From positions 1 to 38,863 of the forward strand of contig LDXP01000018.1 in the NCBI GenBank assembly GCA_001443385.1: DNA of 38,863 bases, read 5' to 3'. The notes beneath the pieces are model-generated. The model was not told where the DNA came from. It ran no database searches and saw nothing but the letters and a program-made list of their open reading frames with translations. A program made the translations under genes and the position numbers. This DNA is from Candidatus Rokubacteria bacterium CSP1-6. GTDB lineage: Bacteria; Methylomirabilota; Methylomirabilia; Rokubacteriales; CSP1-6. Below are positions 1,971 through 13,653 of the stretch, piece by piece. Every line of letters begins with the position of its first letter. The stretch's first letter is position 1.

Positions 1971-4430
1971 CTACCTGAGCACGCCTTCGGCGATCAACTG
2001 ATGGACCTCGGGCCCGCTCATGCCGAGAAGCTCGCCGAGGACCTCCTGGGTATGCTCGCCCAGGCACGGCGCGCGGCGCAGCCGCCCCGGCGTCCGGGAA
2101 AACCGGAACGGCCACGCCTCGTACGGGGCGCGGCCGATCTCGGGATGCTCGATCCACTGGAACGCGCCGCGAGCGGCCAACTGCGGATCCTTGTGGAGGT
2201 CGGCGCAGGACTGGACGACGCCCGCCGGAATGCCGAGCCGCTGGAGGCGCCGGGCCAGGGCCCGGGCTTCCTGGGCGATGGTCCACCGTCCGATCAGGCG
2301 GTCCAGTTCCTCCGCGTTGCCGCGCCGCGCCTCGGGCATGGCGAAGTCGGGCCGCCCGCACCACTCGGGCTTCCCCATCGCCCCGCAGAGCGCCTGCCAC
2401 TCGGCGTCGTCCCCGCAGGCGATGACGCACCACTGGTCGCTGCCCGCGCACGGGTAGGCGTTGTGAGGGGCCGCCCGATCATCCGCGTTGCCGCGGCGCG
2501 CCGTCACTCTGCCGTTGACGGTGAAGTCGAGAATCGCCGGGGCGAGGAAGTGCAGACTCGCCTCGAACTGGGAGAGGTCCACGTGCTGGCCCTCGCCCGT
2601 CCGGCGTCGGTGATCCAGCGCCGCCAGGAGCGCCGCCGAGGCGAAGTGATGGGCGACGAAGTCCGTGTAGGCGCCGTAGATCATAGACGGCTCCCTGTCG
2701 GGCCAGCCGGTGACCGCGTAAAAACCCGCGAGGGCCGCCGCCAGGGAGCCGTAGCCGGCGTAGTGGGAATGCGGGCCGGTCTGCCCCTGCTGGCACGTGG
2801 AGAGCAGGATGATGTCCGGCTTGAGCGCCTTGAGGTCGGCGTACCCCAGCCCCCAGCGGGCCATAGTGCCGGGCGTGAAGGACTCCACCACCACGTCGGC
2901 CCGCGCACTGAGCCGGCGGGCGATCTCCAGGCCCCTGGGATGGGAGAGGTTGAGCGCCACCGAGCGCTTGCAGGCGTTGTAGTTGGCGAAGAGCTGGCTC
3001 CGGTTGGGCCCCGCCTCGCGGTCCGCCCACGGCGGCAGGGTCCGGCCGGGATCGATGCGGAGCGCCGACTCCAGGCGGATCACGTCGGCGCCGAACTCGG
3101 CCAGGAGGCGACCGGTGATCGGCCCCGTGGCCACCCACCCGAAGTCGAGCACGCGCAGGCCCGCGAACGGCGGCGCCAGCACGTGAGGGGCCACCCACGG
3201 TCCGCCGGGGCCCGCCTGCCACTCGGCGAGGACTTCGGCCGTCTGCTCGCCGATGGTCGGGGCCGGCCGTTGCTTGACGATCGGCGTCAGGCTGAACCTG
3301 GCGAACGGGCCGGGACCCACCGCCGGCCCGTCCGCCCCGCGCCGCCCCAGGGGCAAGAAGAACTCCCGGGCCGCCAGCTGGGCGTTCTCCAGCAGATCTC
3401 GCGTGTCCGCCACCGGAGCGAGGAGGATACCGCGCTTCAGCGCCCCCTCGTACAGCTCCCGCTTCGTCTTTTGCGCGAAGAAGGCGGCCGCGGCGGCCTC
3501 GACCTCATCCAGTTCCGCCTGCCCCCGCTCGCCGGAGGCCAGGAGGTGGGCCGAGTCCCAGGCGCGCCAGTCCCGCTCGCGCATGAAGGCCGGCGCCGTC
3601 CCTTCCTCGTCCATCCAGGCCGTGAGGGCCTCCATGGCCCCCGCCCCGATGGCGCCGCCGCTGGCGATCAGCGCCACGTAGCCGTCGGCGCCGGCGAAGA
3701 TGATCCGCCGCCGAAACCCCGCGTAGCGGGCGTGGACGCCGTCCCGAAACGGAACGTAGCCGTGGAGGCTCGGCAGCCCCGTCTCGCTCATCATCGCCCA
3801 CATCATCGCCGCCTGGGCCGACACCTCGACCCACTGCCCCTCGCCCGTCTGCTCGCGCCAGTGATGCGCCACGAGCGTGCCCACGGCCGCCTGACCCGCC
3901 GCTTGGAGGTACGCCTGCGGAACGCCGATCCGCACGGGAGGCCGATCGCCATCGCCCAGGTGAAACATCATCCCGCTCATCGCCTGGACGATGAGGTCCG
4001 GCCCCTTCCAGTCCCGGTAGGGACCGGTGTGGCCGAACGGGCTGATGGACGTCAGGATGAGGCGCGGGTGGTCCCGGTGGAGCGCCTCCCAGCCGAGGCC
4101 GAGGCCATCCAGGTAGCCGGGGGGAAACGACTCGAGGAGGAAGTCGGCCCGCCGGGCGAGGTCGCGCACCCGGGCCACACCCTCCAGCGTCCCCAGATCC
4201 GCCACCAGGCTCCGACAGTTCTCGGCGTACGCCCACCAGTAGAGGCTTCGCTCGGGATCCGGCGCGTCGCCCGCGAAGGGGCCCTCGCGCCGGGCCGGAT
4301 TTCCCGCGGGAGGCTCGACCCGCACGACGTCGGCGCCGAGATCCGCCAGGATCTTCCCGCACAAAAGGCCGCGGGCGTCGGTCAGGTCCAGAACCCGGTA
4401 GGCCGCCAGCGGCCCGCTCGCCTGCGTCAT
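1971..4430 (-). CDS. tandem (fused) family III CoA-transferase, CaiB/BaiF type
   Basis: At 819 residues this is twice the usual ~400. Two complete CoA-transferase III domains (PF02515) lie head to tail: residues ~8-405 (opening YRVLDLTDARG) and ~420-819 (opening LRVLDFGWVATGP). Each has its own TGEGQ loop. In domain 2 the family's catalytic Asp, which forms the acyl-aspartyl anhydride, is present as Asp590 (GAYTDFVAHH). In domain 1 the aligned position, 21 residues before TGEGQ, is Tyr174 (PQAYLQAAG), so this half is probably inactive or structural. Family members are interlocked dimers, so the fusion may act as a built-in heterodimer. The gene starts 12 nt after the selenoprotein stop. Substrate is unknown. 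Confidence 0.93.
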   Translation of the reverse strand: MTQASGPLAAYRVLDLTDARGLLCGKILADLGADVVRVEPPAGNPARREGPFAGDAPDPERSLYWWAYAENCRSLVADLGTLEGVARVRDLARRADFLLESFPPGYLDGLGLGWEALHRDHPRLILTSISPFGHTGPYRDWKGPDLIVQAMSGMMFHLGDGDRPPVRIGVPQAYLQAAGQAAVGTLVAHHWREQTGEGQWVEVSAQAAMMWAMMSETGLPSLHGYVPFRDGVHARYAGFRRRIIFAGADGYVALIASGGAIGAGAMEALTAWMDEEGTAPAFMRERDWRAWDSAHLLASGERGQAELDEVEAAAAAFFAQKTKRELYEGALKRGILLAPVADTRDLLENAQLAAREFFLPLGRRGADGPAVGPGPFARFSLTPIVKQRPAPTIGEQTAEVLAEWQAGPGGPWVAPHVLAPPFAGLRVLDFGWVATGPITGRLLAEFGADVIRLESALRIDPGRTLPPWADREAGPNRSQLFANYNACKRSVALNLSHPRGLEIARRLSARADVVVESFTPGTMARWGLGYADLKALKPDIILLSTCQQGQTGPHSHYAGYGSLAAALAGFYAVTGWPDREPSMIYGAYTDFVAHHFASAALLAALDHRRRTGEGQHVDLSQFEASLHFLAPAILDFTVNGRVTARRGNADDRAAPHNAYPCAGSDQWCVIACGDDAEWQALCGAMGKPEWCGRPDFAMPEARRGNAEELDRLIGRWTIAQEARALARRLQRLGIPAGVVQSCADLHKDPQLAARGAFQWIEHPEIGRAPYEAWPFRFSRTPGRLRRAPCLGEHTQEVLGELLGMSGPEVHQLIAEGVLR

Positions 4431-4442
4431 TCCGCGTGGGCT

Positions 4443-5234
4443 CTACGCCTCTGCCGGTTCGTGGAAGGCTTCCTCTTCCCAGGAGTCCGTCGGATCGTCC
4501 TCGCGCCACCGGACGGGGACGCGGAGCAGGGTCCCGCCCTCTGTCGCGGTCTCGAGCAGTCGGAGCGCCTCCTTGAGGATCGCCCGCTGACCCACCGGGT
4601 TGTCCGGCTTCCCGCACTGATGGCCGAGGGGAAAATTGACAAACACCGCGCGCGGCGGCCTCAGCAGGGTCGTGATGTCGAGCGCCGAGGACATGGAGAC
4701 CGTCGGGAGCCCGGCCTCCTCGAAGACTCGCGCCATCAGTCCCACGGACTGGTGACAGAGCTGTCAGACGGGAACCAGCAGCGCGGCATCCACCGCCAGA
4801 GCCCGGAGCCGCTCGAGGAGCGCCGGGGCCATCTCCTTCTGGAGGCGAGTACGCATGAAGATCCGCCCCATGAAGGTGAAGGCCGGCGAGGCCAGCTCTC
4901 CGACGAATCCCTCCGCCGCCAGCTCCCTGAGGCGCGAGACCGGGAAGACCGTGTTGACGTCGGTGACCGCCTTGGCGTTCTTCGAGAAGTGGCTGATCCT
5001 GAGATCCCGAGGATCGACGTCGGTGGGAATCTCCCGCCAGGTAAGGTCGTTCTTCACGTCGTCGAAGGGCGCCTGGTCCTTTCGATAGACGCCGCTCGAT
5101 GAGAGGAGCGCGATCCGGCACCGGGAAAGCGGCTTGGGCAGCGGCGTCAACGGGCTCGTCTCGTAGGTGGACCATTGATACGGCGGGTGATCGGGAAAGT
5201 GCAGCCGCACCTGCTCGATATAGCGAACCGGCAT
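4443..5234 (-). CDS. GrdB/PrdB-like reductase, selenoprotein with UGA = Sec157
   Basis: The frame from ATG 5234 to TAG 4443 encodes 263 residues with a single in-frame UGA at 4766-4764. Both sides read as one protein of the glycine/sarcosine/betaine/proline reductase selenoprotein B family (PF07355): before it FTFMGRIFMRTRLQKE and ALLVPV; after it QLCHQSVGLMARVFEEAG, then RAVFVNFPLGHQCGKP. Decoding UGA as selenocysteine gives U-Q-L-C, a redox U-x-x-C motif. A hairpin suited to a bacterial SECIS follows. The start has a good SD (AGGGGAG). The gene sits 22 nt after an SDR and 12 nt before a CoA-transferase, so it is probably an operon reductase with a thiol or carbon-heteroatom substrate. Ordinary gene callers would split it. 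A pseudogene is the alternative, but the conserved frame argues against it. Confidence 0.88.
4737..4766 (-). promoter_or_regulatory. candidate bacterial SECIS hairpin and Sec UGA codon
   Basis: On the minus strand the UGA at 4766-4764 is followed, after 18 nt, by a hairpin. The arms CAGTCC (4751-4746) and GGACTG (4742-4737) pair perfectly around the loop GTG (4745-4743), and A-U and C-G pairs extend the stem beyond one mismatch. A G at the start of the apical loop about 16-37 nt after UGA fits the general bacterial SECIS model. This is a by-eye fold; SelB binding is inferred. Confidence 0.6.
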
Positions 5235-5256: not shown

Positions 5257-6018
5257 TCAGGCGGCGCTGTGGCCGCCGTCGAGATAGATCGTCTGCCCGG
5301 TCATGAAGTCGGAGGCGGGCGACGCCAGGTACACGGCCAGCGGGCCGATCTCCTCCTCGCGCCCCGTCCGTCGCAGAGGAATGTCTCGGAGCAACCGCTC
5401 CCTGAGCTTCTCGTTCGCAAAGGCATGGGCGTTCATGTCGGTGACGAACCAGCCCGGCGCGATCGCGTTGACCTGGATGTTGTGGCGGGCCCACTCCACC
5501 GCCAGCGTCCGCGTGAAGGCAACGATGCCGCCCTTCGTCGCCGAATAGACCGCGTAGTGCGGGAGCCCCACCGCCGCCAGCATCGAGGCGACATTGATGA
5601 CCTTCCCGCGCTTGGCCGCCAGGAAGTGGGGGGCCGCGGCCCGGCAGCCGTTCAGGACGCCCGTCAGGTTGGTCTCGAGCATCCGACTCCATTCCTCCGG
5701 CGGCCCCTCCGCGAAGGGTCCCACGTGCGCCACGCCGGAATTGTTGACGAGAATATCCAGGCGACCCAGGCCGGTCACGGCCCGCCCCATCAACGCCTCG
5801 ACTTCGGCGAGGATCCGCACGTCGGTGGGCACCACCAGCGCCCTGCGGCCCAGCCTTTCCACTCGATGCGCCGTCTCCTCCAGGTCGGGCTTGGAGCGGC
5901 CGGCCAGGGCGAGGTCTCCCCCCGCCTCGGCCAGGGCCAGCGCCATGGCCCGCCCCAGGCCGCGGCTCGCCCCCGTGACGACGGCGACGCGCCCGTCCAG
6001 TCGCAGCGTCTCAAGCAT
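5257..6018 (-). CDS. SDR family NAD(P)-dependent oxidoreductase
   Basis: A classical short-chain dehydrogenase of 253 residues. It has the cofactor motif TGASRGLGRA near the N-terminus, the structural NNSG (variant of NNAG) near residue 91, and the catalytic Ser-Tyr-x3-Lys set in NVASMLAAVG and YAVYSATKGG. The C-terminal substrate loop begins NAIAPGWFVTDMN. The start overlaps the acyl-CoA ligase stop by 8 nt, and the stop lies 22 nt before the selenoprotein start, so translation is probably coupled. It probably acts on a hydroxy- or keto-acyl intermediate of the pathway. It belongs to the FabG/gluconate 5-dehydrogenase-like branch; the substrate is not determinable. Confidence 0.92.
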   Translation of the reverse strand: MLETLRLDGRVAVVTGASRGLGRAMALALAEAGGDLALAGRSKPDLEETAHRVERLGRRALVVPTDVRILAEVEALMGRAVTGLGRLDILVNNSGVAHVGPFAEGPPEEWSRMLETNLTGVLNGCRAAAPHFLAAKRGKVINVASMLAAVGLPHYAVYSATKGGIVAFTRTLAVEWARHNIQVNAIAPGWFVTDMNAHAFANEKLRERLLRDIPLRRTGREEEIGPLAVYLASPASDFMTGQTIYLDGGHSAA

Positions 6019-7801
6019 AGAGCGAGTCGATGATCTTCTGGAACTTCTCGGTCACGCCCTTCCGCTTCACCTTCAGCGTCGGCGTGAGGAGGCCGTTGTC
6101 CTGGGAGAATTCCTCTGGCAGGATCGCAAACTTCTTGATCTTGGCGTAAGACTGGAGATCGGCGTTCTTCGCCTCCACGATGCGGGCGACTCGCTCCACG
6201 ACCTTCGGGTTCTTGGCCAGGGACGCCGGGTCGGTGGCGAGGATGCCCTGCTCCTTGGCGAACTTCGCCAGCTCCTCGGGGTTGAGCGTGATCAGGGCCA
6301 CCGGGTACGGCCGCCGGTCCCCGTACACCATGACCTGGCTGACGAAGGGATCGCCCTTCAGGAGGTTCTCGATGTTCTGGGGGGCGATGTTCATCCCGCC
6401 CGCCGTCACGATCAGGTCCTTCTTGCGGTCGGTGATAAACAGAAACCCGGCCTCGTCGATCTTCCCGATATCGCCCGTGTGGAACCACCCGCCCGGCTCG
6501 AACACCTCGGCGGTGGCCTCGGGCTTCTTGAAGTAACCCTTGGTGGCGATGTTGCCGCCCCGGGCCAGAATCTCGCCGTCGGCGGCGATCTTCAGCTCGA
6601 CGCCGGGCATGGCCTGGCCGACGGAGCCAAACTTGAAATTATCCTCGCGGTTGAAGGTCAGGGCCGGGCAGGTCTCCGTGAGGCCGTAGCCCTCCAGGAT
6701 GAGGATCCCCGCCGCGTGGAAGAACACCGCGATCTCCCGGGAGAGCGGGGCCCCCCCCGACACCGCAAAGCGCAACCGCCCGCCGAGGGCGTGATGGAGC
6801 TTCGCGAACACCAGCTTGTGGGCGACCCTGTGCTTCATGGCCAGCCCGCCGGGGATCGGCTGCTTCGCCTGCTGGAGCTGGCTCACCTGCCGCCCGATCC
6901 CCATGGCCCAGCGGAAAATCTTCTTCTTCACGGGCGAGCCCGCCTCCACCCCCGCCAGAATCTTCGCGTACACCTTCTCGAACACCCGCGGAACGCTGCA
7001 GATGAAGTGCGGCCGGGTCTCCTTCAGGTTGTCCCCGACCTTGTCCAGGTTCTCGGCGAAGGCGGTGGTGAGGCCCCGGTGAACCCCGATGAACCCCTCC
7101 AGGCGGGCGAACGAGTGGGCCAGCGGGAGGAAGAGCAGATGCACGTCGCCCGGGCCGATCTTGATGATCTGGGCGGTGGAGTTCAAGGAGGCGAGATGGT
7201 TTGCGTGGGTCTGGACCACCCCCTTGGGCGGGCCCGTGGTTCCCGACGTGTAGACGATGGTGGCGATGTCGTCCGGGCGGCCCGACGTGACCCGATCCGC
7301 CAGAAGGCTCTTGAGCCGCTCCGCGTTGTCTCGCCCCAGGCGGCGCAGCTCCTCCCACGTGTGCACCGAGCGCTCCCGCCCCTCGTATCCCTGGATGACC
7401 ACGATCTGCTCGAGGGTGTCCATCTTGCCTCGGGCCTCCAGGGCCTTCGCCAGCTGGGCCGGGTCCTCGACGATGAGGGTCTTGGCGCCGGAGTCGCCGA
7501 CGATGTAGGCGAGCTGCTCGGGGGTGTACGAGGGGTACACCGGAATCGTCGTGCACCCGGCCGAGAAGATCGCGAAGTCCGCCTGCACCCACTCGGGGCG
7601 GCTGGCCGAGAGCAGGGCCACCGCCTCGCCCTTCTGCCGTCCCAGAGCCAGGAGCCCGAGGGCCACTTCCCGCACGGTCTCGCCGAGCTGGCGCCAGGTG
7701 AGCGTCTCCCACTTCCCCGCGCGCTTGACCTGCTGGGCAGGGGCGTCGCCGCTCTTGTCGATCCGGCTCCAGAACATCCGCGCCAGAGTGTCGTCAGCCA
7801 T
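6011..7801 (-). CDS. long-chain acyl-CoA synthetase (AMP-forming)
   Basis: A 596-residue AMP-binding enzyme (PF00501) of the FadD15/ACSL type, forming an acyl-CoA from a carboxylic acid, ATP and CoA. Visible motifs are the P-loop YTSGTTGPPKG (about 180-190), EGYGLTETCP (about 375), GWFHTGDIG, and the hinge region DRKKDLIVTAGG. The C-terminus lacks the shorter PxTxxGK-type ending of small ligases and matches the ~600-residue long-chain class. An AAGGAG ribosome site precedes ATG 7801, only 10 nt after the previous stop. It is the second ligase of the operon, implying at least two acid substrates or chain lengths. Confidence 0.93.
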   Translation of the reverse strand: MADDTLARMFWSRIDKSGDAPAQQVKRAGKWETLTWRQLGETVREVALGLLALGRQKGEAVALLSASRPEWVQADFAIFSAGCTTIPVYPSYTPEQLAYIVGDSGAKTLIVEDPAQLAKALEARGKMDTLEQIVVIQGYEGRERSVHTWEELRRLGRDNAERLKSLLADRVTSGRPDDIATIVYTSGTTGPPKGVVQTHANHLASLNSTAQIIKIGPGDVHLLFLPLAHSFARLEGFIGVHRGLTTAFAENLDKVGDNLKETRPHFICSVPRVFEKVYAKILAGVEAGSPVKKKIFRWAMGIGRQVSQLQQAKQPIPGGLAMKHRVAHKLVFAKLHHALGGRLRFAVSGGAPLSREIAVFFHAAGILILEGYGLTETCPALTFNREDNFKFGSVGQAMPGVELKIAADGEILARGGNIATKGYFKKPEATAEVFEPGGWFHTGDIGKIDEAGFLFITDRKKDLIVTAGGMNIAPQNIENLLKGDPFVSQVMVYGDRRPYPVALITLNPEELAKFAKEQGILATDPASLAKNPKVVERVARIVEAKNADLQSYAKIKKFAILPEEFSQDNGLLTPTLKVKRKGVTEKFQKIIDSLYA

Positions 7802-7811
7802 GATGGTCTCC

Positions 7812-9314
7812 TTAAATGAGTTTCCGTAGCTCCTTGCGGAGGATCTTGCCGACCGGACTCTTGGGCAGCGACTCCACGAAGCGCACCTGCTTCGGGCACT
7901 TGAACCGGGCGAGCTTCTCCGCGCAGAACGCCATCATCTCCTCGGCGTTCGCCTCCTGGCCTGCCTTCACCACGACGAACGCCAGGACGTCCTCCCCCAT
8001 CAAGGGGTCCGGCATCCCCACCACGCCCGCCTCGGCGACCTTCGGGTGGGCGTAGAGCACCTCCTCCACCTCGCGCGGGTAGATGTTGAAGCCCCCCCGA
8101 ATGATCAGGTCCTTCTTGCGCTCCACAATGTAGAGGTAGCCGTCTGCGTCCAGCCGGCCGACGTCGCCCGTGTGGAGGCACCCGTTTTTGAGCGTCTTCT
8201 GGGTCTCCTCGGGCATCCGGTAATACCCCTGCATGACGCTGGGCCCGCGAACGCAGATTTCCCCCACCGTCCCAGCGGGAAGCTCCCGGTCCTGGTCGTC
8301 AAGGATCTTCACCTCGACGCCGGGAATCGGCTTCCCGACCGAGCCCAGACGACGCTCCATGGACAGCCGGTGGGCCGACACGACGGTCGTGGCTTCCGTG
8401 AGCCCGTAGCCTTCGAGGATCCGCCCTCCAAATTTCTTCTCGAAGGGCTCGACGATCTCCAGAGGCAACGGCGCGGCGCCCGATCCCCAGTAGATCATGG
8501 ACGAGGTGTCGAACTGCTCGGCCCCCGGGTAATTCAGCAGGTACACGAGCATCGTGGGGACGCAGGACATGGACCGGATCCTGAACTTCTGAATCGTCGT
8601 GAGGACCTCCTCGGGGTTGAACCAGCGGAGCAGCACCCCGCGCGTTCCCAAGATGTTCCCGGCATTCATCACCGTGAGGCCATAGGAGTGGGACAGGGGG
8701 AGGACCGCGAGGGACCAGTCTTCCCGGGACAGCTCATGCAGGGAGGCGGCCGAGCGGGCGTTCGAGTGCAGGTTCCCGTGCGAGAGCGCGACGCCCTTGA
8801 TCTTCCCGGTCGTGCCGGAGGTATAGAGGATCACCGCCAGGTCCCCGTCCGCCCGCTCCACGATCCCGAAGGTGTCCGGCTGCCCCTTGACAAGCTCCGC
8901 CAGGCCGAGCGTCTGGTTCCCCTCCCCGTCCACGAGCACGACGTGGCTGAGGGTGGGCAGGGCGGCGATCAGCGGCTCCACCTTCCAGACCATGTCGGTG
9001 GAGGTGATGACGACCTTGGCCTCCGAGTCCACGAGGATGTGCCTGACCTCCTCGGGGCCCAGCAGGAAGATCACCGGAACGACGACAGCTCCCAGCTTCA
9101 GGATGGCGGCGTAGCTCTGGGGGACCTCGGGGCAGTTCGGGAGCATGACGACGACGCGGTCCCCCACCCCCACGCCCAGGCCCCGGAGGGCGTGGGCCAG
9201 ACGGTTGGCGGCGCGGTGCTGCTCCCGGTTCGTGTACTCCTTCCCCTCGAACAGCAGCGAGACATACTCGCCGTACTTTTCGAGGTTTTCCTCGCCCAGT
9301 CGCGCCAGGTTCAT
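7812..9314 (-). CDS. acyl-CoA synthetase, class I AMP-binding (medium/long chain or aryl acid)
   Basis: A 500-residue AMP-forming acid:CoA ligase. The P-loop is YTSGTTGKIKG, followed by EGYGLTEATTV, HTGDVGRLDADGY, and ERKKDLIIRGGFNIYP. The C-terminal catalytic Lys is in LPKSPVGKILRKEL. It is shorter than and clearly distinct from the downstream ligase, and resembles FadD3/fatty-acyl or 4-coumarate-type ligases. It is the first gene of the minus-strand operon running to 957. The 132 bp upstream form a divergent promoter region shared with the phasin gene on the other strand. No strong SD precedes ATG 9314 (the leader is AT-rich), and no obvious promoter was assigned to it. Confidence 0.93.
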   Translation of the reverse strand: MNLARLGEENLEKYGEYVSLLFEGKEYTNREQHRAANRLAHALRGLGVGVGDRVVVMLPNCPEVPQSYAAILKLGAVVVPVIFLLGPEEVRHILVDSEAKVVITSTDMVWKVEPLIAALPTLSHVVLVDGEGNQTLGLAELVKGQPDTFGIVERADGDLAVILYTSGTTGKIKGVALSHGNLHSNARSAASLHELSREDWSLAVLPLSHSYGLTVMNAGNILGTRGVLLRWFNPEEVLTTIQKFRIRSMSCVPTMLVYLLNYPGAEQFDTSSMIYWGSGAAPLPLEIVEPFEKKFGGRILEGYGLTEATTVVSAHRLSMERRLGSVGKPIPGVEVKILDDQDRELPAGTVGEICVRGPSVMQGYYRMPEETQKTLKNGCLHTGDVGRLDADGYLYIVERKKDLIIRGGFNIYPREVEEVLYAHPKVAEAGVVGMPDPLMGEDVLAFVVVKAGQEANAEEMMAFCAEKLARFKCPKQVRFVESLPKSPVGKILRKELRKLI

Positions 9315-9363: not shown

Positions 9364-9415
9364 ATAACGCACCGCGAAAAATCGCTTGACAGACATTGCC
9401 GCAGTGCGTTATCCT
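9364..9415 (+). promoter_or_regulatory. sigma70-type promoter of the phasin gene with a 9-bp inverted repeat
   Basis: A perfect -35 TTGACA (9386-9391) and a -10 TATCCT (9410-9415) are separated by 18 bp. A 9-bp inverted repeat, ATAACGCAC (9364-9372) and GTGCGTTAT (9404-9412), brackets the -35 and overlaps the -10, with arms 40 bp apart. A TGCCGCA palindrome (9397-9403) lies in the spacer. PhaR proteins are known to repress phasin genes at TGC/GCA-rich sites, so these are operator candidates. Confidence 0.65.
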
Positions 9416-9446
9416 GCCCCCAGACTCACACAAGGAGGTGCCGCAT

Positions 9447-9896
9447 ATGGCAACCACGAAGAAGGCAGACGAGATGTTCGGGCAGTTCACCGGCAAGGCC
9501 GTGGAGGCGCTCACGCTCTGGGCCGACGCCAACCAGAAGATCGTCCGCGAGCTGGTGGACCTCTCCGCCAGCACGGCCAAAGAAGGGGTCCGGCTATACG
9601 CCGAGCTTCAGTCCTCGGCCGTCGAGGCCGTGAAGGACGGGCAGGACTTCCTGCTCCGCCGGCAGGCCGAGTGGCAGGATCTCCAGAAGGATCCCGCCGG
9701 CTGGTACCAGAAGAATCTGGTCGAGGGGATCGAGGAGACCCAGAAGGCCTTCAAGCTCCTGGAGGGCAACGCCCAGGCCGTCACCCAGTCCGCCGAGCGG
9801 CTTCAGGCCTCAGCCGAGCAGGCGAGCAAGGAGATCCAGCAGACCTTCGCCAGCGTGGGCGGCAGGCTCAAGACGCTTTACACCCCGGCCAACTAG
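9447..9896 (+). CDS. phasin family protein (PHA granule-associated)
   Basis: A 149-residue, mostly helical protein. The start at ATG 9447 is fixed by AAGGAGG 8 nt upstream; an earlier in-frame ATG at 9396 lies inside the promoter and is rejected. The sequence shows phasin character: an N-terminal FGQFTGKAVEALTLWADANQ, then amphipathic helices rich in Ala, Glu and Gln (FLLRRQAEWQDLQKDP; AVTQSAERLQASAEQASKEI) and no membrane segment. Phasins coat PHA granules and control their number and size. It has its own promoter and terminator and stands opposite PhaR, its usual repressor. Assignment to a specific phasin Pfam family is not certain. Confidence 0.85.
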   Translation: MATTKKADEMFGQFTGKAVEALTLWADANQKIVRELVDLSASTAKEGVRLYAELQSSAVEAVKDGQDFLLRRQAEWQDLQKDPAGWYQKNLVEGIEETQKAFKLLEGNAQAVTQSAERLQASAEQASKEIQQTFASVGGRLKTLYTPAN

Positions 9897-9920
9897 GACA
9901 GCCGCTCCGACCAAGACCGG

Positions 9921-9957
9921 CCCCCTCACCTGTAGGGTGAGGGGGTCTTTATTTTTT
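9921..9957 (+). terminator. rho-independent terminator after phasin gene
   Basis: The perfect 10-bp stem CCCCCTCACC (9921-9930) / GGTGAGGGGG (9936-9945) has a 5-nt loop and is followed by the T-rich tract TCTTTATTTTTT. It lies 25 nt after the phasin stop and runs into the last codons of the convergent phaR. Its stem is identical to the outer arm of the interspersed palindromic repeats in this window. Confidence 0.85.
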
Positions 9958-10446
9958 CCGCTTCCTCGGGATTCGACGCTCGACCGCCCGGAGTTTCTCC
10001 TTCAGCGTAGCCACCTCCTCTCGGAGGCTCTCCGCCTTCGTCTTCTCCTCCCGACCCTTCCGGGCCTCAGGCTCCCGCTCCTTCGAGGGGAGCCAGCCCG
10101 CCTTCGAGGCCCATTCCCTGAAGACGCGATCGGCATCCCGCTGGCTCGTGATGATCCCTTCCAGGCTGGTGCGGAGCGATCGCTGGACGAAGTCCTGCCA
10201 GGCTTCCCCGTGCTTGATGAGCTGGTGGAGCAGGCCCGTCGGCAGCGTGGCCCGGTGGGCCCGCTCGTTCTCCAGGAGGATCTGCGCCAGCGTCACCGAG
10301 GTCAGATCCTCCCCGGTGCCCGCGTCCGTGACCCGGATCTCCTTGCCCGCGCGGATCATCTCCTCGAGCTCTTCGAGCGTCACGTAGCGGCTTTCCTGGG
10401 TATCGTAGAGCTTGCGGTTCGAGTAGCGTTTGATGATATAGGCCAT
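9949..10446 (-). CDS. phaR: polyhydroxyalkanoate synthesis repressor PhaR
   Basis: The 165-residue protein starts at ATG 10446 with the hallmark PHB/PHA accumulation regulator domain (PF07879): YIIKRYSNRKLYDTQ, then RYVTLEELEEMIRAG and TSVTLAQILLENE. A middle PHB_acc-like segment (GLLHQLIKHGEAWQDF) and a Lys/Arg/Glu-rich coiled-coil tail follow (about 125-165). An upstream in-frame extension to 10653 lies inside phaB and has no homology character, so it is rejected. PhaR binds DNA and PHA granules and represses phasin and often its own gene. It is divergent from phaB and convergent with the phasin gene, whose terminator overlaps its 3' end. Confidence 0.93.
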   Translation of the reverse strand: MAYIIKRYSNRKLYDTQESRYVTLEELEEMIRAGKEIRVTDAGTGEDLTSVTLAQILLENERAHRATLPTGLLHQLIKHGEAWQDFVQRSLRTSLEGIITSQRDADRVFREWASKAGWLPSKEREPEARKGREEKTKAESLREEVATLKEKLRAVERRIPRKRKK

Positions 10447-10503
10447 GGCGCGCTCCGGCGCAAGTCTAACACCCCGCGTCATTCCGGGCAAGGCGCCGTC
10501 TGC

Positions 10504-10518
10504 TATACTTGCGACGCA
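10504..10518 (+). promoter_or_regulatory. candidate -10 element and TGCG-A-CGCA palindrome in the phaR/phaB divergent region
   Basis: TATACT (10504-10509) is a good -10 for phaB, but no convincing -35 lies 16-18 bp upstream. Immediately after it is the palindrome TGCGACGCA (10510-10518), around the expected transcription start. Its TGC/GCA half-sites resemble the element in the phasin promoter, consistent with PhaR control. That link is inference. Confidence 0.4.
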
Positions 10519-10549
10519 CGAAAGATGCAGAACGTAATGGAGGAGTGCG

Positions 10550-11293
10550 ATGAAGCTCAAGGGCCGCACCGCTCTCGTCACCGGCGCCTCCCGCGGCATC
10601 GGCCGGGCGATCGCTCTGGCGCTTGCAGCGGAGGGGGCCGATGTGGCCGTCAACTACGTCTCGAGTGAAGGGCCGGCCAAGGAGATCGCCGAGCAGATCC
10701 AGAAGCTGGGGCGGCGGGCCATCCTGGCGCGGGCCGACGTCGGCGACTTCCCCGACACCTTCCGGATGGCCCAGGAGGTGCTGAAGGAATTCGGCCACCT
10801 GGACATCCTCATCAACAACGCCGGCGTTACGTCGGACATGACCTTCGTGAAGATGGACCACGCCTCCTGGCGGAAGGTTCTGGCGGTCAACCTCGACGGC
10901 GTGTTCAACTGCACGAAGGCCTTCATCGACCAGATGATCAAGCAGAACTACGGCCGCGTCGTGAACATCACCTCGGTGATCGGCCAGATCGGCAACTTCG
11001 GCCAGGCCAACTACGCCGCGTCGAAGGCCGGGGTGGCGGCGTTCACAAAGTCCCTGGCCAAGGAGCTGGCCGGCAAGGGCATCAGGGTCAACGCCGTGGC
11101 GCCGGGATTCATCGAGACGGAGATGATCGAGGCGATCCCCGAGAAGGTGCGGCAGCGACTCCTGGATCAGATCCCGCTGAAGCGCTTCGGCCGGGCCGAC
11201 GAGGTCGGCCGGGCGGTGGTGTACCTGGTCTCCTCGGACGGGGACTATATCACGGGAGCGGAGCTCTCGATCAACGGCGGCCTCCTGATGTAA
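10550..11293 (+). CDS. phaB: 3-oxoacyl-ACP / acetoacetyl-CoA reductase (FabG/PhaB type)
   Basis: A 247-residue SDR that reduces 3-oxoacyl thioesters with NADPH. It has TGASRGIGRAIALAL (residues 10-24), NNAGVTSDMTF, the catalytic Ser in NITSVIGQIGNFGQ, and Tyr/Lys in QANYAASKAG. The ending GAELSINGGLLM is typical of FabG/PhaB. The start has GGAGGAG 5-7 nt upstream. FabG and PhaB cannot be separated by motif alone; the position between phaR/phasin and a phaC/phaE operon favours supply of (R)-3-hydroxyacyl-CoA for PHA, hence the symbol. Its 3' end overlaps the convergent MaoC-like gene by 23 nt, so the two coding regions share antisense sequence. Confidence 0.85.
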   Translation: MKLKGRTALVTGASRGIGRAIALALAAEGADVAVNYVSSEGPAKEIAEQIQKLGRRAILARADVGDFPDTFRMAQEVLKEFGHLDILINNAGVTSDMTFVKMDHASWRKVLAVNLDGVFNCTKAFIDQMIKQNYGRVVNITSVIGQIGNFGQANYAASKAGVAAFTKSLAKELAGKGIRVNAVAPGFIETEMIEAIPEKVRQRLLDQIPLKRFGRADEVGRAVVYLVSSDGDYITGAELSINGGLLM

Positions 11294-11849
11294 GGCGAGG
11301 GCGGCAAGCGGCGAGGACGGAGAGGCCCAGGATTGCCCAGACGCTCAGCGCCTGGGCCGCCCAGGCCCACGGCTGAAGGGCCCAGAAGGCCAGCTCGCCG
11401 GCCCCGCTCTTGTCCTCGGCGTACACGATCTGGCTCTTCGGCGGAAGCACCCAGGCCTCGCCGGCCAAGACCTCTTCGCCCCGTTGATTCACGCAGATGG
11501 TCTGGAGCCGTACGCGGTTGCGCTCCCGGACGATCTCCAGCACCTCCACTCGCGCCGTGATGGTATCGCCCGCTCTCACGGGCTTCAGAAAGTGGAGATC
11601 CTGGGTCACGTAGATGCTCCCCGGCCCCGGGAGCCGCGTCCCGATCACGCCGGAGATCAACCCGGCCGTCCAGATCCCCGGAGCGATGGGGCCCCGGAAC
11701 GCGGTTGCGGCGGCGAAGACCGGGTCCGAATGCACCGGGTTGTGGTCCCCGACAGCGTCCACGAACTCGGCGATATCCTCTTCCGACACCACCCGCGAGA
11801 GCTCGGCCGAATCTCCCACCGACAGCTCATCGATCGCGCGTCCGATCAT
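11271..11849 (-). CDS. MaoC-like (R)-specific enoyl-CoA hydratase with C-terminal hydrophobic extension
   Basis: The ATG at 11849 overlaps the PhaE stop as ATGA, giving 192 residues. Residues 1-137 form a MaoC/PhaJ hot-dog domain with the hydratase dyad Asp35 and His40 in the motif D-x-N-P-x-H (VGDHNPVHSD), then GPIAPGIWTAGLISGV and LHFLKPVRAGDTI. PhaJ enzymes make (R)-3-hydroxyacyl-CoA from enoyl-CoA for PHA synthesis, which fits last place in the phaC operon. Unusually, the usual ~140-residue domain carries about 55 extra residues; positions ~153-182 are strongly hydrophobic with many Trp and Ala (WALQPWAWAAQALSVWAILG). This may be a membrane or granule anchor. Confidence 0.85.
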   Translation of the reverse strand: MIGRAIDELSVGDSAELSRVVSEEDIAEFVDAVGDHNPVHSDPVFAAATAFRGPIAPGIWTAGLISGVIGTRLPGPGSIYVTQDLHFLKPVRAGDTITARVEVLEIVRERNRVRLQTICVNQRGEEVLAGEAWVLPPKSQIVYAEDKSGAGELAFWALQPWAWAAQALSVWAILGLSVLAACRPRLTSGGRR

Positions 11850-12424
11850 TGAGCCACCCTGTCCGCGGCGCGCCGCGCGGCGGCCGCCTCGTGATCCGCC
11901 AGGGACTTGAAGAGATCGTCCATCCGCGCCATCAGCGCGCCCAGCCGGTCCTCCAGCCCCTCGATGCGATCTTCGAGGTCCACCACCTGGCGCGCGATCC
12001 CTACCACCTGAGTGCGGGAGGGAACGCCGAGCGCCTGGAGGGTGGCCTCGGTGGACTCTTCGGCGACCTTCTTGATCGGCGCCTGAAGCGACAGCCACTG
12101 GTCGAGGTACTTGCCCAGCACCTGGGCGAAGGCCTCCGTCCCCATGGCCTGTTCCAGCACCTTCTGCCAGGCGGCGATCCACTGATCCAGGAACTGTTTC
12201 CACTGCGTGAGGAGCTCGGGAGTGGGCGGCCCCTGGGTCAGGAGCTTGGACCAGGCGGCCATGCCCTGGTCCATGAAGGGCCGCCAGAACTGGAGCGGGT
12301 CCGGGGGTTGAGCCTGGCCGGATTGGCCGATCTGGCCCACCAGCCGGGCCCAGGCCTGCGTCCCTTCCTCGATCTGCTTCTTCCAGAGGTCGAACAGCGC
12401 CTGGGTGCTCGAGTTGTCTGCCAT
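11846..12424 (-). CDS. phaE: class III PHA synthase subunit PhaE-like
   Basis: The ATG at 12424 is chosen because GAGGTG precedes it by 6 nt; a GTG three codons upstream is part of that SD. The 192-residue protein is helical and rich in Trp and Gln, with repeated WxxFxDQxxAxW-like segments (FWRPFMDQGMAAW; QWKQFLDQWIAAWQKVLEQ) as in PhaE (PF09712). The conserved segment GVPSRTQVVGIARQVVDLE follows and then a coiled coil (DRIEGLEDRLGALMARMDDL, about residues 150-170). It is shorter than the ~350-residue Allochromatium PhaE and closer to compact PhaE/PhaR-like partners. PhaE activates PhaC, encoded directly upstream. A 77-bp palindromic repeat separates the two genes. Confidence 0.85.
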   Translation of the reverse strand: MADNSSTQALFDLWKKQIEEGTQAWARLVGQIGQSGQAQPPDPLQFWRPFMDQGMAAWSKLLTQGPPTPELLTQWKQFLDQWIAAWQKVLEQAMGTEAFAQVLGKYLDQWLSLQAPIKKVAEESTEATLQALGVPSRTQVVGIARQVVDLEDRIEGLEDRLGALMARMDDLFKSLADHEAAAARRAADRVAQ

Positions 12425-12472
12425 GGCCGTCACCTCATGCCTATCCTACCGCCTTTGACGCTCTGCGCCAAG

Positions 12473-12548
12473 CCCCCTCACCCTCCCCAACTCGGATGCC
12501 CCTCACCTCTTCTCCTCTCCCCAGGGGGGAGAGGTGGGGTGAGGGGGA
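12473..12548. repeat. interspersed palindromic repeat, copy 1 (phaC-phaE gap)
   Basis: Inner stem CCTCTCCCC (12514-12522) / GGGGAGAGG (12526-12534), flanked by CCCCTCACCTC and GGGGTGAGGGGG. An extra CCCCCTCACCCTCCCC precedes it. It occupies almost the whole phaC-phaE spacer. Confidence 0.85.
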
Positions 12549-12555
12549 GAATCCC

Positions 12556-13653
12556 CTACGACCGGGGCGCTAGCCAGCTCGACACCTTGGGCCAGCAGTG
12601 AACGGACGCCCCCCGGCCGGCGATGAGGGAGATGTGGCCCCCGGGCAGCTCCACGTAGCCCTTGTCGGTGCTCCCTACCGCATCGATCAGCGCCTTCACG
12701 CAGGCTGCTGGGGCAATGTAGTCCTCCTTGGCGCCCACGACGAAGACCGGGCACCGGATCTCCCCCAGCCGCACGGGCTTCCCCCCGAGCCGCAGCTCCC
12801 CCCGGATCATCCGGTTCTGCTGGTAAAACTCCTTCACCCACTGGCGGAAGAACTCGCCGGGGAAGGCCACGTACTCGTTCGCCCACTTGTTGAGCGCCTG
12901 GAACCCCTCCACATAGGAATCATTCCACAGGTTCCACCAGAGGTTCAGCCCCGTGGTCAGGTCCATGGTGGGCCGGAGGAGCTTGAAGCCGGCCTTCACC
13001 ATGTCGGCCGGTATCTGCCCCAGCGTGTCCACGAACTTGTCGGCGTCGAAGTACCTGGGGTCGAGCCACACGCCGAAGAGCCCCACCTTGGAGAAGTCGA
13101 TCGGTCCCGCCATGTTGACGAAGTTCTTCACCGGGACCTCCGGGTGGGTGGCGATGAAGCAGGCCGAGAGTGGGCCCCCCATGCAGTAGCCGAGCACGCT
13201 CAACTCCCGGGCGCCCGAGATTTCCAGCACCTTCCGCGCCATGCGCGGGAGGATGCGGGTCACGCAATCCTCCAGCGTGAGCCGGTTGTCCTCGGGGCCG
13301 AAAACGCCCCAGTCCAGGAGGTAGAAGTCGAAGCCCTCGCGCGTCATGTGCTCGATGAAGCTCCCGCCCGGGAGCAGGTCAAAGATGTACGGCCGGCTGA
13401 TCCCCAGGTTCGGAACGAAGAGGAGCGGGGTCCGGTATTTCCGCCTGGACTCGTAGCGGTAGAGGCGCGACTTGTTCTTCCGGTAGATCTCTTGCCGCGG
13501 CGTCGGCCCCACCGACGGCTCCTTCGGGTTCGCCACCATCTCGGTGAAATTCTTCATCCGGCCGAGGTTCCGCTGCAGCTCCTCCTGCCACTGGGCGATG
13601 ACCTCAGGATCCACCCGCGGTTCGTCGGTCACCATCGTGAAGCGATCGGGCAT
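12556..13653 (-). CDS. phaC: class III polyhydroxyalkanoate synthase subunit PhaC
   Basis: At 365 residues it matches class III PhaC (~355), not class I (~590). The alpha/beta-hydrolase active site is complete: Cys157 in the lipase-like box GYCMGG, Asp311 in GAKEDYIAP, and His340 in PGGHISL. The spacing equals that of Allochromatium PhaC (Cys149, Asp302, His331). Other family segments are LLFVPNLGISRPYIFDL, FDFYLLDWGVFGPED and LNLWWNLWNDSYVEGF. It polymerises 3-hydroxyacyl-CoA at the granule surface together with PhaE. The ATG shares its A with the stop of the upstream CoA-transferase (TGATG), so translation is coupled to a CoA-transferase. Confidence 0.97.
   Translation of the reverse strand: MPDRFTMVTDEPRVDPEVIAQWQEELQRNLGRMKNFTEMVANPKEPSVGPTPRQEIYRKNKSRLYRYESRRKYRTPLLFVPNLGISRPYIFDLLPGGSFIEHMTREGFDFYLLDWGVFGPEDNRLTLEDCVTRILPRMARKVLEISGARELSVLGYCMGGPLSACFIATHPEVPVKNFVNMAGPIDFSKVGLFGVWLDPRYFDADKFVDTLGQIPADMVKAGFKLLRPTMDLTTGLNLWWNLWNDSYVEGFQALNKWANEYVAFPGEFFRQWVKEFYQQNRMIRGELRLGGKPVRLGEIRCPVFVVGAKEDYIAPAACVKALIDAVGSTDKGYVELPGGHISLIAGRGASVHCWPKVSSWLAPRS

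Follow-up and report, generated by a model that had tools for sequence, protein, structure and literature searches.

A predicted PrdB-like selenoprotein with a conserved UxxC motif and a covarying bSECIS hairpin in Candidatus Rokubacteria bacterium CSP1-6

The window analysed here is a stretch of 38,863 nucleotides, contig C18 of the Candidatus Rokubacteria bacterium CSP1-6 genome (2.88 Mb, 91% complete). On its minus strand it carries a gene for a PrdB-like protein, a predicted selenoprotein of 263 codons followed by a TAG stop (4443–5234). Directly upstream, on the same strand, lies a short-chain dehydrogenase (SDR) gene (5257–6018; PF13561) which ends in an ordinary UGA stop, preceded by genes for two AMP-forming acyl-CoA ligases (6011–9314; PF00501 in both). 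The downstream neighbours, also on the minus strand, encode a double-domain CoA-transferase family III protein (1971–4430; PF02515 in two stretches) and a zinc-dependent dehydrogenase (957–1961; PF08240/PF00107). A polyhydroxyalkanoate (PHA) cluster is represented at 9396–13653 by genes for a PHA_synth_III_E-like protein, an alpha/beta hydrolase and an SDR.

The minus-strand frame from 5234 to 4446 contains 263 codons and its sole interruption is a UGA at 4766–4764. ORF calling returns two ORFs in this one frame, 5234–4764 and 4745–4443, with the single TGA between them; the sequence-only reading had anticipated that standard annotation would split the gene in this way. When the TGA is read as U, a protein of 263 residues is obtained containing LLVPV-U157-QLC160-HQSVGL, which bears out the proposal that both frames form one protein with U-Q-L-C followed by HQSVGL. 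Sec157 is thus predicted at 4764–4766, and the codon for Cys160, the second half of the UxxC motif, lies at 4755–4757. Both residues are invariant in an alignment of 53 sequences (A1), as are D92, P98, R169, E172, T178, P194, R195, P202 and G208. A scan of the window for other genes with an in-frame UGA returned three weak, unsupported candidates and missed the known gene at 4443–5234, which makes it uninformative.

The codon at the Sec157 column was TGA in 101 of 104 distinct homologues (counted with their contexts, and including clostridial and proteobacterial records) and Cys in the other three. An unrelated sense codon, which the sequence-only reading had proposed to look for at this column, was therefore found in none of them. 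The TGA is kept in two other genomes of the genus, whose proteins are 89% and 85% identical to that of the window. A homologue is present in 67 of the 95 genomes sampled from the phylum; full-length matches carry the in-frame TGA, and matches that do not are fragments. A single-protein genome scan matched only two Rokuibacteriota MAGs. Judged from these alignments, the conservation of TGA in frame is far beyond chance. Purifying selection acts equally on either side of the UGA: comparison with L032, for example, gave dN 0.054 and dS 0.43 before it, and 0.075 and 0.64 after it. On a plasmid of Paraclostridium, one PrdB-like gene (L152:2971–3627) carries a TGT codon for Cys at the position that is UGA in its clostridial relatives.

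A core bSECIS hairpin is predicted at 4737–4751 on the minus strand, on the evidence of compensatory changes, synonymous randomisation and the local fold. Counting from the U of the UGA, nucleotides 16–21 pair with 25–30 around a loop of 3 nt. This gives the stem-loop just after the UGA, with a G in the apical loop, by which a bSECIS element is recognised; the loop opens with G in all 93 distinct phylum members. In the same 93 sequences the pair 19–27 is U-A in 45, A-U in 31, G-C in 15 and U-G in 2, while the pair 18–28 is G-C in 82, C-G in 9 and A-U in 2. The codon for Ser, Thr or Ala in the hairpin co-varies with the partner third base of a Gly (or Ser) codon. On average 5.77 of the 6 pairs are formed, compared with 3.83 under synonymous codon replacement (sd 0.09; the highest value in 2000 runs was 4.12). 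In a formal count over 36 sequences, 97.7% of cells were paired versus 84.8% in shuffles, and the covariation score was 0.312 versus 0.065, with none of 500 shuffles reaching the observed level. As far as sequence comparison can tell, this co-variation is not explained by protein constraint alone. The folding energy of the hairpin by itself is unremarkable (z −1.47; 19 of 200 shuffles as good), so that the case for a bSECIS element is one of covariation, not of fold energy. An Rfam scan of the window returned no match. The hairpin is broken in the Cys homologues: two proteobacterial sequences form 4 and 2 pairs, and that of Paraclostridium forms 2. Its exact geometry was not found in clostridial Sec-containing PrdB either, and so belongs to the family in this phylum.

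The genome contains the machinery that selenocysteine insertion needs. A check for selA, selB, selC and selD had been proposed from the sequence, and all four were found: selC (anticodon UCA), selA and selB form one cluster on contig C69, and selD lies on contig C32, where it is itself interrupted by a UGA. This selD (L013:1501–2442) has its UGA within CAGUASKMGP and would encode a Sec-containing SelD. In the phylum sample selA was found in 84 of 95 genomes. The host also has two paralogues of the window protein, on contigs C19 (49%) and C45 (39%); in both, the same column, set in VPVUxxCHQSxGL, is a UGA.

The best family match of the protein is TIGR04483 (PrdB; E = 3.9e-45), which covers nearly its full length at 154.1 bits against a cut-off of 300. 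PF07355 (GRDB) matches just above threshold (22.7 bits versus 22). The GrdB models match weakly and only through their C-terminal part (39.5 versus 602 bits); glycine reductase GrdB was rejected as an identification on these grounds and on the length of 263 residues. The same NCBIfam models are matched by all 53 aligned relatives, and Pfam GRDB by 52 of them. The Pfam match stops at residue 154, three before Sec, which corresponds to profile position 345 out of 347; this end point perhaps derives from source sequences cut at the UGA. The UGSC family profile was not listed for the window protein and matched 5 of the 53 relatives weakly. On profile and motif evidence the protein is a member of the GrdB/PrdB superfamily with a UxxC motif. 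The sequence-only description of it as GrdB/PrdB-like consequently holds at the level of the superfamily, and does not extend to D-proline or glycine reductase. In a quickly built tree, several forks of which are open, the window protein falls in a clade of 16 rows (support 98) comprising its own genus, genome G083 and 12 family f10 genomes. This clade is distinct from clostridial PrdB (support 100) and from five others. Elsewhere in the collection a 397-residue PrdB-like form was seen, with a C-terminal extension and the motif UPxCTHxxGVLAR (L111, L117, L121, L123 and L136–L140).

The partner subunit of the PrdA/GrdE type (PF09338, Gly_reductase) was not found in the host genome, in the genus or in any genome of the clade, including the closed, one-contig genome G025. 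The same search did detect it in 20 of the phylum's other genomes, and where these also hold a short PrdB-like gene, PF09338 is located elsewhere, often beside long GrdB-like genes. GrdA (PF04723) gave no match in the genome, in a search run without a positive control. The lack of PF09338 supports the earlier view that the organism is not a Stickland fermenter. Together with the UGA/Cys-only column, the sel genes, the covarying hairpin and the low dN/dS, which uphold the reading of the UGA as Sec, these results make it very likely that the gene encodes a GrdB/PrdB superfamily selenoprotein in a genome with no detectable PF09338 partner.

The gene neighbourhood differs between lineages. Within the genus the gene sits between the SDR and the double CoA-transferase, whose adjoining place is conserved in the genus only; acyl-CoA ligases are upstream in the window and in one of two congeners. 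In G083 the gene follows an acyl-CoA dehydrogenase gene. In most of the 12 family f10 orthologues it comes directly after clpB, and in seven cases the next gene downstream is glyA (SHMT). Such variation means that context is not a safe guide to function and does not identify the substrate. Other clades have settings of their own. In sister clade E (motif UGLCNQAVGL; L109:6790–8975, L105, L104, L093) the genes adjoin those for an ArsS radical SAM protein, an ArsM-like methyltransferase and a VTT-domain protein, with a MerA-like FAD oxidoreductase also nearby in some loci. Clade D (L086, L090, L100, L106, L108, L120), which includes the C45 paralogue, shows a fixed order of TetR gene, PrdB-like gene, rplU, rpmA, obgE and proB-proA-nadD in up to 12 genomes.

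Several other explanations of the locus can be weighed against this evidence. A pseudogene, a sequencing error, two separate genes or a genome-wide reassignment of UGA is extremely improbable. Two ORFs are what standard annotation would give, but the UGA recurs in separately assembled genomes throughout the phylum, and dN/dS is low on both sides of it; reassignment is opposed by the UGA stop of the upstream SDR gene and by homologues which show Cys, never Trp, at the column. The best profile match would make the protein the catalytic PrdB subunit of D-proline reductase, or of a related amino-acid reductase. Its score is about half of the family cut-off, however, and it lies outside the branch of clostridial PrdB, which has full support. 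The gene also has no neighbours of the prd type, in contrast to annotated plasmids, on which PrdB adjoins prdA. A PrdA missed in the unassembled 9% of the genome is argued against by the relatives, which also lack PF09338, and this identity is very unlikely.

The sequence-only reading had taken the acyl-CoA operon as a pointer to the role of the protein. An enzyme dedicated to that pathway would be consistent with the tight spacing and common orientation that the gene shares, in the genus, with those for CoA-transferase, SDR and acyl-CoA ligases. Some members of other clades likewise have CaiB or acyl-CoA dehydrogenase genes beside them. Yet the phylum is rich in such genes, with 26 PF02515 (CoA_transf_3) matches in the host genome alone, and most f10 orthologues follow clpB instead. 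The pointer is therefore weak: a function read from the operon was rejected as the arrangement is not conserved outside the genus, and a dedicated acyl-CoA enzyme appears unlikely. The place beside clpB in family f10 favours a general stress or redox repair protein acting in the detoxification of peroxides, disulfides or electrophiles, as do the changeable context around a conserved UxxC and the occurrence of sister clade E among arsenic genes and a MerA/disulfide-reductase-like gene. The clpB adjacency may nevertheless be due to chance and clade E is a different branch, so that this role is a possibility somewhat short of an even chance.

The protein is probably a stand-alone reductase with a Sec nucleophile. 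A structure model of high confidence (pLDDT 93.1, pTM 0.93) places Sec157 between a strand (150–154) and a helix (158–173), with Cys160 one turn later. Searches of the PDB by sequence and by fold gave no credible relative (best E 3.3e-3, TM 0.25); the single profile match was to a designed protein and was set aside. On this reading SelB, bound to the bSECIS hairpin beginning 12 nt past the UGA, delivers Sec-tRNA for insertion of Sec157, and the compact, single-domain protein would work without a pyruvoyl (PrdA/GrdE) partner. Sec157 may then attack an electrophilic carbon, a peroxide or a disulfide of a small substrate; Cys160 would resolve the adduct as a selenenylsulfide, which a cellular dithiol would recycle. 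This sequence of attack, resolution and recycling is a tentative scheme with close to an even chance of being right. That the local acyl-CoA genes point to an acyl-CoA or carboxylic-acid electrophile is doubtful and would apply to the genus alone.

PrdB is the 26-kDa Sec subunit of D-proline reductase (TIGR04483). The window protein resembles it in size, in its one domain, in the UxxC motif and in the full-length profile match, but differs in scoring under the family cut-off, in having no PrdA partner, in its separate branch and in the hairpin geometry after the UGA. GrdB, GrdF and GrdH (PF07355, TIGR01918) are the selenoprotein B of glycine, sarcosine and betaine reductases. The window protein matches the C-terminal part of their profiles; GrdB, in contrast, has about 430 residues and works with GrdA and GrdE, neither of which was found here (for GrdA, within the limits of its uncontrolled search). 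Homologous proteins occur in the Alphaproteobacteria Roseomonas and Haematobacter as ‘Glycine/sarcosine/betaine reductase selenoprotein B family protein’. These bacteria are aerobic and not Stickland fermenters, and their proteins differ in that Cys replaces Sec and the hairpin is missing. The Sargasso Sea survey of 2005 (PMC1088965) and the GOS survey of 2008 (PMC2398784) already list PrdB-like UxxC selenoproteins, as an abundant ‘proline reductase PrdB’ family with Cys homologues, from surface-ocean communities not known as Stickland fermenters. The window protein, likened to these by description, not by sequence, very probably belongs to the same wide family; the protein itself is accordingly new, but its kind is not. 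FarB, a GrdB-like protein proposed for monofluoroacetate reduction, suggests by analogy that GrdB-like Sec proteins may act on non-amino-acid substrates; unlike the window protein, it has a proposed partner, FarE, which is homologous to GrdE, and its host is anaerobic (PMC10838667). A review reports that 63 selenoprotein genes were predicted in one Methylomirabilota MAG (PMC13188914).

In this groundwater bacterium an internal stop codon thus appears to be read as Sec in a small enzyme related to an amino-acid reductase subunit, without the usual partner. Standard pipelines cut such genes in two, and the conserved hairpin offers a clean signal for mending their annotation. PrdB-like UxxC genes are widespread and often labelled proline reductase; as the partner subunit was found nowhere in the clade, this label would be wrong for the clade's proteins. 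It is conceivable, at the level of a working suggestion, that the PrdB-like clades of the phylum are stand-alone selenoenzymes of undescribed chemistry in respiring bacteria, which may reduce substrates other than amino acids with a Sec nucleophile and no pyruvoyl subunit, their paralogues serving different substrates.
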